A stretch of 64,000 bases of DNA from Chthonomonas calidirosea T49 (GTDB lineage: Bacteria > Armatimonadota > Chthonomonadetes > Chthonomonadales > Chthonomonadaceae), in the NCBI RefSeq assembly GCF_000427095.1, contig NC_021487.1, forward strand, positions 3,337,501-3,401,500, in the 5' to 3' direction. Position 1 is the stretch's first letter. Each line of letters begins with the position of its first letter. The notes under the pieces are model-generated. The model was not told where the DNA came from. It worked only from the letters and a program-made list of their open reading frames with translations, and made no database searches. The position numbers and the translations under genes are program-made. Below, piece by piece: positions 23,427-28,200 of the stretch.

Positions 23427-23498
23427 ATGGCTAACCACAACAAGCGCAACAAGAAGCTGCAACAGGGAGAAGGGAGTGTCCCCCCCCGTAGGTGGTAA
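23427..23498 (+). other. Alternative upstream start/short ORF of the RHS gene, out of frame at a C8 tract
   Basis: ATG at 23427 with AAGGAG 10 nt upstream is the best start signal in the area. It encodes MANHNKRNKKLQQGEGSV, then runs through the C8 tract into PPRRW and a TAA at 23496. If the tract had seven C instead of eight, this ORF would continue in frame into the RHS protein. It may therefore be the true start of a frameshifted or phase-variable gene, or a leader ORF. The downstream GTG at 23476 lies inside it. Confidence 0.55.
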
Positions 23499-26400
23499 CC
23501 CACCGCAACCTTCTGCTCGTTCACGCGGCATCGCACGCCGCCAGTTCCTCACCTCCGCCCTCGCCAGCCTCGGCGCCGCTGTCTTTGCGGGGGCTTCCCT
23601 CGAAAGCGCTCAGAGCGCCCAAGCCCTCTCCACCGGCTCTCCGCCTCTGCCGCCTACCCCCGGCCCTGCACACTCCTGGCAGCCTCTCGTCTCTTTGGGC
23701 ATAGGGCAGTCCAACCTGGCCTCCGGCAACGCCCATGGCACCTTCCCTCTCTTTGGCTGGAGCGGAAGAGGAGGTGGGCTGAACTTCGCTCTCTTCTACA
23801 ACTCCCAATCCGCCCGCACCAGCCCCTTAGGCCCGAAATGGAGCCACAGCTATCGCAGCTACCTGCTGAATGTGCCCAACACCCAAAACGTGGTGTGGGT
23901 GCAAGAGAACGGAAGCGAAACCCTCTTCACCTGGAACGGCTCGGCCTATGTGCCTCCGGCCGGCTGCTACGACAGCTTGAGCCTCAACCCCGACGGCAGT
24001 TGGACGATCGTGCGCAAAGGAGGCACCAAATACTTCTTCTCCTCAACAGGGTGGTTAACCCAGATCACCGACCGCAACAGCAACACCACCACCTTCAGCT
24101 ACAACAGCGCCAACCTGCTGACCAGCGTGACGGATGCGGCCGGCCGAAGCCTCAGCTTAAGTTACGACGGTTCGGGACGGTTGACGAGCGCCGCGGACTG
24201 CGCAGGTCGGACATGGAGTTTTCAGTACGATGCCTCCAACCGGCTAGACACGGTGGTGTGGCCGTCGTTGAACGGCAACCTGTATGCGGAGCTGTTTGGC
24301 TACGATGCCTCCAACAACCTGACCGCCTACATCGACAGGCTGAACCGGAGTTGGAACTACACCTATGGCAGCAACGGGATAGTGACCGGTGAGGTCAACC
24401 CGGCCGGTTCCAAGAGCGGGAGTGGGTCTTATCAGGCGATAGCGGTTCAGTCGCAGACGCGCACTCAGGTGATCAGCAGTTCGAGCAGTTGGCCCAGTGG
24501 GACGACGGTGGTGGCGAGCTGGACGGACGCCAATCAAAACACCGTTCAGTATGGGATGGACAGCCAAGGTCAGCTGTTGGGGGTGGTAGATGCGTTGGGT
24601 CATCAGACCAGCTTCAGCTACGACAGCGCCCACAACCTTCTGTCAACGACGACGCCTTCGGGGAGCGTGTGGCAGCAGCAGTACGACAATCGGGGCAACA
24701 TGTTGGTATCGCAAGACCCGCTAGGCCACAGCACCCAGCTGGCCTATGGGGTGTTTGACCTGCTGGTGTCGGTGACCGACCCGTTGGGGAACAAGACGCT
24801 CTTCAGCCTGGATAGCAGCACGGGCAATGTGCTTCAGGTGACGGATGCCAACAACAACGTGAGCCGTTTCAGCTACAATGGGGATGGAAGCGTGGCGAGC
24901 GTGACCGACCCCGCGGGTCGCACCAAGCAGTTTGGGTACGACCAGTGGGGGCATCTGACGAGCCGCACAGACCCCTTGGGGAACGTAACCCGCTACAGCT
25001 ACTCGGTCGACAGCCTTTTGCAGCAGCGGGTGGACGCGTTGGGCTATGTGACGCAGTACAGTTATGACGGGTGGGGGAGGCTAGTTTCGGTCAGTTATCC
25101 TACCAGCGGGGCACCGGGGATCAGCTATAGCTGGGATGCAGGGGGTCAGTTGATCCAGAGCAGCGATAGCACCGGTGTCCGCAGCTACACCTACGACGTG
25201 TTGGGTCGGAAGGTGAAGGCGGTAGACCCTCGCGGGACGACGCAGGCCAGTTATGATGCGGTGGGCAACCTGTTGAGCCAGACCGATGTGACGGGTCGGG
25301 TTCTGACCAACAGCTACGATGCGGCGTATCATCTGACGAGCGTGGTAGATGGGAGCGACAACGCGCAGGTGAGCCTCAGCTACACGGCGGACGGTCAGGT
25401 GTCGAGCGTGATGTACCCCAACGGCGTGGAGGTGCAGTACAGCTACGATGCGGCGGGTCGTGTAACGAGCGTTCAGCACGTGCTGGTAAGCAGTGGGACG
25501 GTGTTGGTGGGCTACAGCGCCAGCTACGATGCGGCCGGTCGTTTGGTACAGGTGGTAGAGCAGCCGAGTGGGGATGTGACGGTGTACCAATACGACGCGG
25601 TGGGGAACCTGCTGAAGGAGCAGCGGAGCGGTTCACGCAGCTACAGCGGGAGCTACACGTACGACCCCTCGAACCTTCGTTTAAGCGCTCAGGTGGTGGT
25701 CAACGGGGTGCCGGTTCATATGGGCAGCTACAGTTACGACGGCGGGGGTCGTTTGGTACAGGTGGTAGACAGCGCGACGAACACGACGGAGGTGTACAGC
25801 TGGAACGCGACGGGGACGTTGTCGAGTGCCCCTGGTCCGGGCTACACGCGCGGTTTTATGTGGAATGAAGAGGGCCAGTTAGTGGGGATAGCGCACAACG
25901 GGGTTTTGGCGTACCAGTACGGTTATGGTGCGGACGGGAACCGTCGTTGGCGGAAGGACTTGGCGAACAACGTGTGGGTCTGGTATCCGTGTGGGGTAGC
26001 GTGCAGCGCTGGGGAGCTGGTGGAGGAGGTAAGCGACCTGAGCGGTGGGGTATGGAGTGTTCAGGCGTTGTATCTTCGTGTAGGCGGCGGCTGCAGCAGC
26101 CAGTTGGTTCGTCGGAACGGGGAGTACCATCACAGGGATGTGTTAGGCAACTATGGGGTGATAACAGACGGGAGTGGGAACGTGCTATCGAGTAATCTGT
26201 ACGATGCGTTTGGAGTGAGCATGTACACGAGCGGTAGCGCCCAGAGCCCGTATCGTCCAGCAGGAATGGTATTGGATGTGGAGGGGTTGGATTTCAGCGG
26301 ACCTCCGGTAGCCTGCCCTGCGTATGCCAACAGGGACTTGGTACTACAACCGCTGTGTACAGGAAGAAAACGGCGAAGGCCGCCCCACAGGCCCAAACCG

Positions 26401-26706
26401 CCTCATCCGCACCCACACCCACCGCTCCCACCACAACCACAGCCACCCAAACCAAATTGTGGCACTCTTCTGGCCCATTGCGATTCAGTCTGCTCAGGAC
26501 TCCTAACAGCTTGCTTAGCTGCATTTGGTGCTGGTGTTGCAGTGTGTCTGGCAGCGTGTTTAAATCCTACTTCCGTCGCTTGTTTAATAATTTGTGGTGT
26601 TCTAGTGGTAGGCCTCCTAGCATACTGTCTGATAAGCTTCCATATTTGTAAAGACGACTGCTTCAAGGCATATCAGCAGTGTGTGGCTCACGGTGGCACG
26701 CCCTAA
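23476..26706 (+). CDS. Tat-exported RHS/YD-repeat protein with a C-terminal 12-Cys module
   Basis: 1076 aa from the GTG at 23476 (AGGGAGAAGGGA just upstream; see the alternative ATG at 23427). Residues 15-45 are a twin-arginine signal (SRGIARRQFLTSALASLGAAV). Residues about 75-900 are RHS/YD repeats: many copies of YDxxGRLTS-type motifs (YDAAGRVTS, YDAVGNLL, YSYDGGGRLVQV) that in relatives form a beta-shell cage. Residues about 910-960 correspond to the RHS core end (GNYGVITDGSGNVLSSNLYDAFG), but the usual RYYDPxxGRF is not legible in this frame. A Pro/His-rich linker (960-993) leads to residues 994-1076, with 12 Cys spaced 6-3-6-10-3-7-3-10-6-3-6. Likely an exported delivery or surface protein with a disulfide-rich effector or anchor; function unknown. 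Confidence 0.8.
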   Translation: MSPPVGGNPPQPSARSRGIARRQFLTSALASLGAAVFAGASLESAQSAQALSTGSPPLPPTPGPAHSWQPLVSLGIGQSNLASGNAHGTFPLFGWSGRGGGLNFALFYNSQSARTSPLGPKWSHSYRSYLLNVPNTQNVVWVQENGSETLFTWNGSAYVPPAGCYDSLSLNPDGSWTIVRKGGTKYFFSSTGWLTQITDRNSNTTTFSYNSANLLTSVTDAAGRSLSLSYDGSGRLTSAADCAGRTWSFQYDASNRLDTVVWPSLNGNLYAELFGYDASNNLTAYIDRLNRSWNYTYGSNGIVTGEVNPAGSKSGSGSYQAIAVQSQTRTQVISSSSSWPSGTTVVASWTDANQNTVQYGMDSQGQLLGVVDALGHQTSFSYDSAHNLLSTTTPSGSVWQQQYDNRGNMLVSQDPLGHSTQLAYGVFDLLVSVTDPLGNKTLFSLDSSTGNVLQVTDANNNVSRFSYNGDGSVASVTDPAGRTKQFGYDQWGHLTSRTDPLGNVTRYSYSVDSLLQQRVDALGYVTQYSYDGWGRLVSVSYPTSGAPGISYSWDAGGQLIQSSDSTGVRSYTYDVLGRKVKAVDPRGTTQASYDAVGNLLSQTDVTGRVLTNSYDAAYHLTSVVDGSDNAQVSLSYTADGQVSSVMYPNGVEVQYSYDAAGRVTSVQHVLVSSGTVLVGYSASYDAAGRLVQVVEQPSGDVTVYQYDAVGNLLKEQRSGSRSYSGSYTYDPSNLRLSAQVVVNGVPVHMGSYSYDGGGRLVQVVDSATNTTEVYSWNATGTLSSAPGPGYTRGFMWNEEGQLVGIAHNGVLAYQYGYGADGNRRWRKDLANNVWVWYPCGVACSAGELVEEVSDLSGGVWSVQALYLRVGGGCSSQLVRRNGEYHHRDVLGNYGVITDGSGNVLSSNLYDAFGVSMYTSGSAQSPYRPAGMVLDVEGLDFSGPPVACPAYANRDLVLQPLCTGRKRRRPPHRPKPPHPHPHPPLPPQPQPPKPNCGTLLAHCDSVCSGLLTACLAAFGAGVAVCLAACLNPTSVACLIICGVLVVGLLAYCLISFHICKDDCFKAYQQCVAHGGTP
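23480..23487 (+). repeat. Poly-C (C8) homopolymer, candidate slippage tract
   Basis: Eight consecutive C, four nucleotides into the GTG-initiated RHS frame and inside the ATG-initiated frame. Change of one C switches which start codon feeds the long RHS frame. Confidence 0.8.
25537..25769 (+). repeat. Exact 23-nt direct repeats inside the RHS gene
   Basis: The 23 nt at 25537-25559 recur exactly at 25747-25769, 210 nt (70 codons) apart, each encoding GRLVQVV of a YD repeat. Exact identity at DNA level within a divergent repeat protein suggests recent internal duplication or gene conversion, and allows in-frame deletion of 70 codons. Confidence 0.75.
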
Positions 26707-26725: not shown

Positions 26726-26758
26726 GGTAGGAGAAGGGTGAAACCGCCTTCTCCTACT
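26726..26758 (+). other. Hairpin between the RHS gene and the membrane-protein gene
   Basis: GTAGGAGAAGG (26727-26737) pairs perfectly with CCTTCTCCTAC (26747-26757). No U-tract follows, so it is more likely an mRNA-stability or processing element than a terminator; the two genes may still be cotranscribed. Confidence 0.5.
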
Positions 26759-26787: not shown

Positions 26788-28200
26788 ATGAAACTATGGC
26801 AACAACTGGTTACGAGGCTCCAGGCCATTAAACCAAGAGGTTCCACAAAGGCCCCTCAGCTAGGAGAAAAGCTATTTTCGATAAAGGGGTCAAGCAAGAA
26901 GGTGGGCTTTAGGCTCCTAACTCTTGGTCTACCTTTTAGTCTATTGCTGTTATTCGTTCTTTTTGTGGTTAGATGGATCTATCTCTTCCTGACATCGGTT
27001 AGCTTGCAATCTCCACATCCATCGGATGTCCTTAACTGGCAGGCGCTCATGGTGCTGAAGCTTCTGACACTTCTTACAGGGGTTGAAGGAGTGCTTTTGA
27101 TAGCCAGTTACTTTATCAACTCATGGCGTGGGGAGATCAGCGTGTGGCAGGGTGGACTGTGTATTGAGAGCCTACTATCCACAGTGAGGTTACCATGGGA
27201 TGAGGTTCTGGATGTGGTGGAGCGCAACATAGGAAACAAAAACGAGCCAACCCTGCTTATTCTTACCACAAAAGGTTGGCTCTCGTTGCCAGCGCAGTCG
27301 GAGGAGGCGCAGCAGCTAAAGAGCCACCTCCTCAACCATCTAAAACGCGATCACCCTATTCCTCACGACCGAAGTCGTGGCAACCCTCCATCCTACTTGC
27401 TCAATACCATAAGATTTATAAGTCTTCTAATGTTTATGTCGTCAGTGACGTTCTACATCATCAACAAAAACTTCAATCCTGAGTTTGTAAGTATTTCTGT
27501 CAATCTTGAGTTGGTAATTTATTTTGTCAGTATATCTCTAGTTTGTGTATTGGCATCCTTGGTGCTCTTGTGGGAATTCACGACCTATCCTCTTCGCTCC
27601 TACGGGAATCAACGTGACGTCTTTCATTTGTCCTCGCTCGTCAAAGAGATATTCCGTATGAAGAGGTTGCGAAAGACCTTTTCTGATTTACTATTGTCCC
27701 CGCACAACCATCCTAGAACACTGCTGGCCGTGTACAAAGCGTTGGCGCTCAGAGTGCTTGCCGCCTATGCTTCCGACGATGTCCGCAAAATTGACGAAAA
27801 AACGCGACGCTCACTTCACAAGCTGCTCCGCAGCGAAACAGATCCAGAGTTCCTCTGTGCTTTCCTGCAGTCATATCGGCCCCTTGTAGTTCCCAGCGAT
27901 GCACCTGTGATGGAAGCGTTGGTGCAGGGCAAGACCGCTCTGGGATATCATGCGGAGGTAGCCCAAGAGGCTCAAACATGTTTGGATGTTATCAGGGAGC
28001 TGACCAACCCACAGACGCTTTTGCGGGCAGGTACGTTGACTTCGGAGCATCTGTTACGCCCGGTTTCGAACCCCACACCTGCAGAAAATCTGCTGAGGAG
28101 CGTGACAAACCCTTCGGAGACGTTAGAGGAGGATCGAAAAGAGCCACTAACGCCTGCCACCAGGTTGCAGGCGGAGCCGCAAGAACAGGCAGCAAGCTAG
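26788..28200 (+). CDS. Multi-pass membrane protein with PH-like segment, 470 aa (possible RHS partner)
   Basis: Family not recognised. Four hydrophobic segments are seen: about residues 47-70, 88-111, 208-228 and 238-265. Between the second and third lies a bacterial PH-like stretch (GEISVWQGGLCIESLLSTVRLPWDEVLDVVE...LLILTTKGWLSLP). The C-terminal 200 residues are soluble, helical and HEAT-like (TLLAVYKALALRVLAAYASDD). They are followed by a short imperfect repeat (NPQTLLRAG, NPTPAENLLRSV, NPSETLEE). AGGAGG precedes the ATG. It starts 81 nt after the RHS gene on the same strand. The position is that of an immunity or export partner, but nothing in the sequence proves this. Confidence 0.65.
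   Translation: MKLWQQLVTRLQAIKPRGSTKAPQLGEKLFSIKGSSKKVGFRLLTLGLPFSLLLLFVLFVVRWIYLFLTSVSLQSPHPSDVLNWQALMVLKLLTLLTGVEGVLLIASYFINSWRGEISVWQGGLCIESLLSTVRLPWDEVLDVVERNIGNKNEPTLLILTTKGWLSLPAQSEEAQQLKSHLLNHLKRDHPIPHDRSRGNPPSYLLNTIRFISLLMFMSSVTFYIINKNFNPEFVSISVNLELVIYFVSISLVCVLASLVLLWEFTTYPLRSYGNQRDVFHLSSLVKEIFRMKRLRKTFSDLLLSPHNHPRTLLAVYKALALRVLAAYASDDVRKIDEKTRRSLHKLLRSETDPEFLCAFLQSYRPLVVPSDAPVMEALVQGKTALGYHAEVAQEAQTCLDVIRELTNPQTLLRAGTLTSEHLLRPVSNPTPAENLLRSVTNPSETLEEDRKEPLTPATRLQAEPQEQAAS

Follow-up and report, generated by a model that had tools for sequence, protein, structure and literature searches.

The C-terminal 83 residues of an RHS protein of Chthonomonas calidirosea T49 carry 12 cysteines spaced as an exact palindrome, and this module belongs to a family of mirror-symmetric cysteine modules, predicted to fold as helical hairpins, at the ends of RHS proteins of Armatimonadota. 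It lies in a window of 64,000 nucleotides, the whole stretch of DNA analysed here. In the interpretation that we favour and consider fairly probable, the RHS protein is exported by Tat and ends in this module as its polymorphic tip, which would be zipped into a hairpin by disulfides and is a putative membrane-acting effector with a possible downstream protector. The tip class looks new, whereas the system itself, that of polymorphic Rhs tips, is already known. More tentatively, the hairpins may represent a new effector fold class: a hendecad hairpin with four to six nested disulfides, evolving by whole cross-links, that would serve as a membrane-attacking tip within a venom-like Cys-rich repertoire folding outside the cytoplasm.

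The mirror-symmetric module and its relatives

The module is encoded by window positions 26455-26706 (+) and forms residues 994-1076 of a 1076-aa RHS/YD-repeat protein with a GTG start (23476-26706, +); its 83 residues and 12 Cys were delineated from the translation, homologs and AlphaFold2. The RHS ORF matches PF05593 RHS_repeat (E 9e-98, 14 stretches), PF20148 and TIGR01643 (E 1e-64). Translation reproduced exactly the palindromic gaps given in an earlier note on this DNA, 6-3-6-10-3-7-3-10-6-3-6, and the mirror Cys pairs each sum to 78 (2+76, 9+69, 13+65, 20+58, 31+47 and 35+43). The hydrophobic centre proposed in the same note is likewise supported: the central 45 residues contain no charge and have a GRAVY of 2.07, and the ends are polar. 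The GC content of the module is 48.6%, compared with 60.8% for the RHS core.

The protein carries a Tat-type signal, SRGIARRQFLTSALASLGAAVFAGA...AQA (23521-23625, +), a motif read in the sequence as SRGIARRQFLTSALASLGAAVFA; the RHS relative in genome G015 likewise has ESRRRFLKQAVTAGVTAALL (ESRRRFLKQAV...). The twin-arginine signal supports the earlier suggestion that the window protein is exported, which would then take place through Tat. Two other long RHS relatives have no obvious Tat signal. Both TatC and a VKOR-type disulfide-forming enzyme are encoded in the window's own genome. A PxxxxDPxGL-type demarcation motif is absent from the window protein, and a basic Pro/His-rich linker, GRKRRRPPHRPKPPHPHPHPPLPPQPQPPKP (26362-26454, +, from the sequence), precedes the module instead; because the DPxGL motif is missing, the protein is a variant rather than a canonical Rhs-CT/RhsI member.

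Relatives were sought in 291 Armatimonadota genomes, using the single module as a query and then two profiles, A1 and A2. The first good homolog in the single-module search was the end of a 1086-aa RHS protein in G015 (E 1.9e-6), with weaker ones besides, and the profile searches gave matches at E <= 0.01 in 15 of the 291 genomes. The search of other RHS C-termini that the earlier note had proposed yielded a curated set of 20 related modules, all at or near the C-terminus of an RHS/YD-repeat protein or RHS fragment. Exact palindromes of 8-12 Cys occur in 12 of the 20, with several spacings. The string 6-10-10-3-x-3-10-10-6 was found with x = 9, 10 and 11, and 6-10-3-10-3-x-3-10-3-10-6 with x = 11 and 12; further palindromes are 6-10-3-6-3-9-3-6-3-10-6, 6-10-14-11-14-10-6, 6-10-14-3-13-3-14-10-6, 10-14-6-3-13-3-6-14-10 and 3-6-14-6-3-10-3-6-14-6-3. 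The remaining eight modules are off by one Cys, by one residue or by an extra Cys, with G183b and G191 off by more. Mirrored tips found later read 6-3-6-14-13-14-6-3-6 and 6-3-21-16-21-3-6.

By sequence comparison, cysteines among the relatives have usually been gained or lost as mirror partners. The G015 module (6-10-10-3-11-3-10-10-6) lacks exactly Cys3 and Cys10, which are mirror partners, the pair at offset 29 is missing from the G089 module on both sides of the mirror, and the G183 and G271 modules have four extra residues in both arms. Conservation of the Cys positions in homologs, which had been named as a check on the module, was thus found, with changes falling mainly on mirror partners. 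The earlier remark that no known family has this 12-Cys pattern holds in that the window module has no Pfam, NCBIfam or PDB sequence match, and a profile search of PDB sequences with the module returned nothing; it does not hold in that the module belongs to a family with many spacings.

When second arms were permuted among the members, 12 palindromes were reached in 0 of 20,000 trials (maximum 8), and no more than 5 arose when the gaps were shuffled, compared with the 12 observed. Because profile searches favour matching Cys columns and could therefore favour mirrored members, tips were also picked by their upstream RHS junction, blind to Cys spacing; 11 of the 66 Cys-rich tips of this set contained complete mirror runs with 8 Cys or more, compared with a mean of 0.47 and a maximum of 3 in gap shuffles. 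An ORF scan of 368 loci confined palindromes of at least 8 Cys to the mirror-Cys hairpin family, plus one tandem repeat. The mirrored Cys pattern is not chance. That it is a side effect of a duplication within the module or of an inverted repeat in the DNA, or a chance arrangement, is very improbable: regular Cys patterns do often arise from two-fold repeats, but duplication would give a repeated rather than a mirrored gap order, a Cys codon read on the opposite strand does not encode Cys, and the palindrome counts were not reproduced by the shuffle controls. Internal duplication was rejected on the observation of direct-sense symmetry in 1 of 20 members versus mirrored symmetry in 12.

Outside the phylum, a light sample of about 70 genomes gave one match (E 0.009), which was not Cys-rich, and the hairpin family was not found there. 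Searches by tblastn of plasmids and phages with the module revealed no relatives, and neither did scanning genome and viral contigs with the single sequence. The matches to an 8-Cys DNA pattern in genome contigs and to two 10-Cys patterns in viral contigs were overwhelmingly low-complexity poly-Cys frames; the non-repetitive matches in genome contigs were DUF4215-like or tandem repeats and were set aside as lying outside the hairpin family.

Predicted hairpin and proposed nested cross-links

AlphaFold2 modeling with a 20-sequence alignment of homologs confidently predicted the window module to be an antiparallel two-helix hairpin with a short turn (pLDDT 94.7), in agreement with the paired helices suggested in the earlier note. 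Predicted helix 1 spans module residues 2-34 (26458-26556, +), the turn CLNPTS residues 35-40 (26557-26574, +) and helix 2 residues 41-78 (26575-26688, +). For the 3-6-14-6-3-10-... member, a two-sequence alignment gave helices at 2-39 and 44-89 (pLDDT 96.2). A Foldseek search of the PDB with the hairpin model returned nothing below E 3.5.

Counted from the outermost Cys, the Cys offsets are 0, 4 or 7 modulo 11 in 160 of 172 cases, and these are hendecad core positions, for which helices run straight at 3.67 residues per turn. The stripe of Cys on one helix face described previously is retained, with its alpha-helical register corrected to the 11-residue one. When the two helices were modelled coarsely as straight and antiparallel, with 98.2 degrees per residue, all six window pairs came to a CB-CB distance of 3.8 A; their deviation is 0.0 at 98.2 degrees and 0.5 at 100 degrees, compared with a median of 3.3 A (minimum 0.9) for random mirrored six-position sets. 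The common distance of 3.8 A makes the simultaneous formation of nested disulfides in the window module geometrically plausible, and we infer that they form. The module would fold as two straight antiparallel alpha-helices with Cys on one face at hendecad positions, the Cys at residue i would face that at residue 78-i, and the hairpin could be zipped by as many as six nested disulfides in an oxidising compartment, most likely outside the cytoplasm. Serratia T6SS effectors offer a precedent for periplasmic effectors that depend on disulfides for their activation (PMC5792426). The proposed pairing rule, Cys i with Cys S-i at offsets 0, 4 and 7 modulo 11, would allow disulfide pairs to be read from the sequence alone and is testable, and natural variants in which one putative cross-link is gained or missing provide ready-made experiments.

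Helices with CX3C pairs are textbook ligands of Cu(I) and Zn, and the Cys stripes could accordingly bind one of these metals between the two helices, as copper storage proteins and reduced twin-CX3C proteins do, instead of forming disulfides; reduced small Tim proteins bind zinc via twin CX3C (PMC3759932). We judge metal binding to be improbable, since the partner-wise loss of Cys across the hairpin is expected of covalent pairs and not of a metal-lined tube, the Tat-type export signal and VKOR indicate an oxidising location, and the 20 members have no above-threshold Pfam match to any metal-binding Cys family. With regard to copper storage proteins (Csp) in particular, no Pfam match was found, and the model has two helices rather than a four-helix bundle.

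Closest in shape to the predicted disulfide-zipped hairpin are alpha-hairpinins and twin CX3C/CX9C proteins, which are unrelated to it by sequence in the searches made. Alpha-hairpinins are plant antimicrobial helix-loop-helix peptides with a palindromic CX3C-Xn-CX3C arrangement and 2-3 disulfides formed by 4 or 6 Cys (PMC11591084). The modules share with them two antiparallel helices, here predicted, joined by a loop, and the CX3C-Xn-CX3C core; however, alpha-hairpinins are short plant peptides of 4-6 Cys, whereas the present family has mostly 8-12 Cys over 75-90 residues, a hendecad pattern, a hydrophobic centre and a bacterial Rhs context. Alpha-hairpinins have been delimited by a 4C/6C core with at most 1-2 further Cys (PMC11591084), and the window module contains 8 further Cys around its CX3C-X7-CX3C core. 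The small Tim (twin CX3C) and twin CX9C (CHCH) proteins form a helical hairpin closed by an inner C2-C3 and an outer C1-C4 disulfide (PMC3759932); they are mitochondrial and have four Cys, compared with 12 in the window module, which has no sequence match to them. The twin-Cx9C likeness noted earlier found no sequence support, as the CHCH/small Tim family is absent from the Pfam matches of the 20 members. Halocin C8, to which a looser resemblance had been drawn, is Cys-rich, exported and antimicrobial. It is not known to have a mirrored Cys spacing, and sequence support for this likeness was not found either: the module has no NCBIfam match at E <= 1 in a release that presumably includes the halocin model.

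The polar base and strongly hydrophobic closed end of the hairpin make action at a membrane likely. The module would act on the envelope of neighbouring or competing cells, its hydrophobic closed end inserting into the membrane. A hydrophobic centre (positive GRAVY) is present in 18 of the 20 modules; the centres of the other two, G187b and G179c, are polar, so membrane insertion cannot apply to every member. If hairpins do insert into membranes, they would constitute a compact, extremely cross-linked class of antibacterial proteins. CDI ionophore toxins are C-terminal helical toxins of a polymorphic system that act on the membrane potential and have specific immunity proteins (PMC11630599); they are work-alikes only, being five-helix bundles on CdiA, and no Cys stripe or disulfide zipper is mentioned in the abstract of that paper. 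One further tip, L404 (ORF ~1632-869, -; G047:C126), has a C6C10C ... C10C6C hairpin base around an 83-residue glycine-zipper-like hydrophobic insert, and a pore or membrane device is possible for it.

Tip exchange, orphan arrays and downstream partners

The earlier idea that the module is a variable C-terminus is supported by near-identical RHS cores that carry different tips in one genome. DNA comparison identified a second RHS gene that is 98% identical over 1884 bp to the core segment at 24411-26289 (+); the identity stops abruptly at 26289, and another Cys-rich tip follows. The post-core region and start of the Pro-rich linker (26241-26423, +), in turn, share 94% DNA identity with an orphan tip cassette at another place in the genome; this cassette runs on into a third, different tip. 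In nine relatives the junction sequence recurs many times, often every 1.1-1.6 kb, in short ORFs that lack the repeat core, i.e., tandem orphan tips, each with its own downstream ORF. Such arrays were located at L371, L372, L373, L370, L415, L417, L383, L418, L419 and L420 (G184, G179, G050, G047, G054 and G180). At least 8 Cys are present in 66 of the 71 untruncated tips surveyed, and other Cys-rich tip types recur in the arrays, with spacings that include 5-0-11-0-5, 7-3-11-3-7 and 3-13-3-10-3, several of them with matching neighbours.

A co-directional ORF follows every hairpin tip and 52 of 53 other tips. Of the ORFs behind hairpin tips, 15 of 17 contain a predicted TM or signal segment, as do 42 of 52 of those behind other tips, and on the latter count such neighbours were rejected as a hairpin-specific feature. 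Neighbours are alike in 21 of 57 similar-tip pairs versus 5 of 2549 unrelated-tip pairs; as far as these similarities indicate, the downstream ORF tracks the tip type at the family level. Self-protection would be provided by the envelope protein encoded just downstream, which in the window is a 470-aa ORF (26788-28200, +) with about 4 TM segments and, like the tip, a GC content of 49%. Its position and composition make this protein a candidate for the cognate immunity protein, and a rather doubtful one. The role is rated low because a paralog exists free of RHS and an inverted repeat intervenes. This repeat, read from the sequence as GTAGGAGAAGG/CCTTCTCCTAC (26727-26757, no strand assigned; ~11 bp stem, 9 nt loop, no T run), sits between the tip gene and the 470-aa ORF. 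The paralog, 80% identical and frame-split, is located at G000:C1:1680036-1681360 (L443) with no RHS gene beside it and adjoins a large ORF resembling ileS; the C-terminal part of the 470-aa protein also recurs in RHS-unlinked proteins of G041, G038, G046, G044 and G036.

The RHS-free paralog would also suit a non-toxic hairpin that forms a structural cap, an anchor or an adhesive end of a Tat-exported RHS surface protein, its disulfides conferring heat or protease stability. Such a stability role fits the disulfide zipping, a catalytic signature and any Pfam or PDB match are absent, and the window protein lacks the canonical cleavage motif for release. We nevertheless consider a cap or anchor unlikely, because tips swapped on a near-identical core, orphan arrays and a co-varying neighbour amount to a toxin/immunity organisation, and a structural cap needs neither a repertoire nor a cognate partner. 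Moreover, in G038a, G038b, G084 and G191 the module follows an RHS core end with a DPxG-type motif.

The arrangement of the tips and their neighbours matches that described for polymorphic rhs-CT/rhsI toxin/immunity modules, including orphan modules (PMC3150448). Common to both are a YD-repeat core, abrupt C-terminal divergence, a downstream ORF, tandem orphan tips and co-variation of tip and neighbour. Unlike Rhs-CT/RhsI, the window protein has no DPxGL motif and bears a Tat-type signal in place of a known T6SS/PAAR adaptor; nearly the entire tip repertoire is Cys-rich, and no described counterpart of the mirror-Cys hairpin was found. In the papers searched, the hairpin class is undescribed among Rhs proteins with Cys-rich or disulfide hairpin tips, and no description of polymorphic toxins or tip arrays of Armatimonadota was found. 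Judged by its sequences, the module belongs to a wider repertoire of polymorphic Rhs tips in Armatimonadota. The large repertoire exposed here comprises effectors seemingly suited to an oxidising place and partners suited to the envelope.

In the orphan hairpin tips L025 (G184:C4) and L399/L045 (G181:C118), the reading frame is broken or contains a TGA, and in G181, at least, the partner ORF downstream of the broken tip is still readable, as if the partner alone had been kept. The RHS tip L428 (ORF from ~366, +; G179:C22) contains the phospholipase A2 signature CCxxHDxC as CCMAHDTCY; its match to PF08398 has an E value of 0.021, under the Pfam cut-off, and a TM/signal-bearing ORF adjoins it. 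At L372, L375, L374, L384 and L426 (G183, G184 and G187), the translated stretch RLPSPxRRGxGGEVxQPG recurs ahead of RHS fragments; it is probably a dispersed repeat that has entered RHS genes by insertion.
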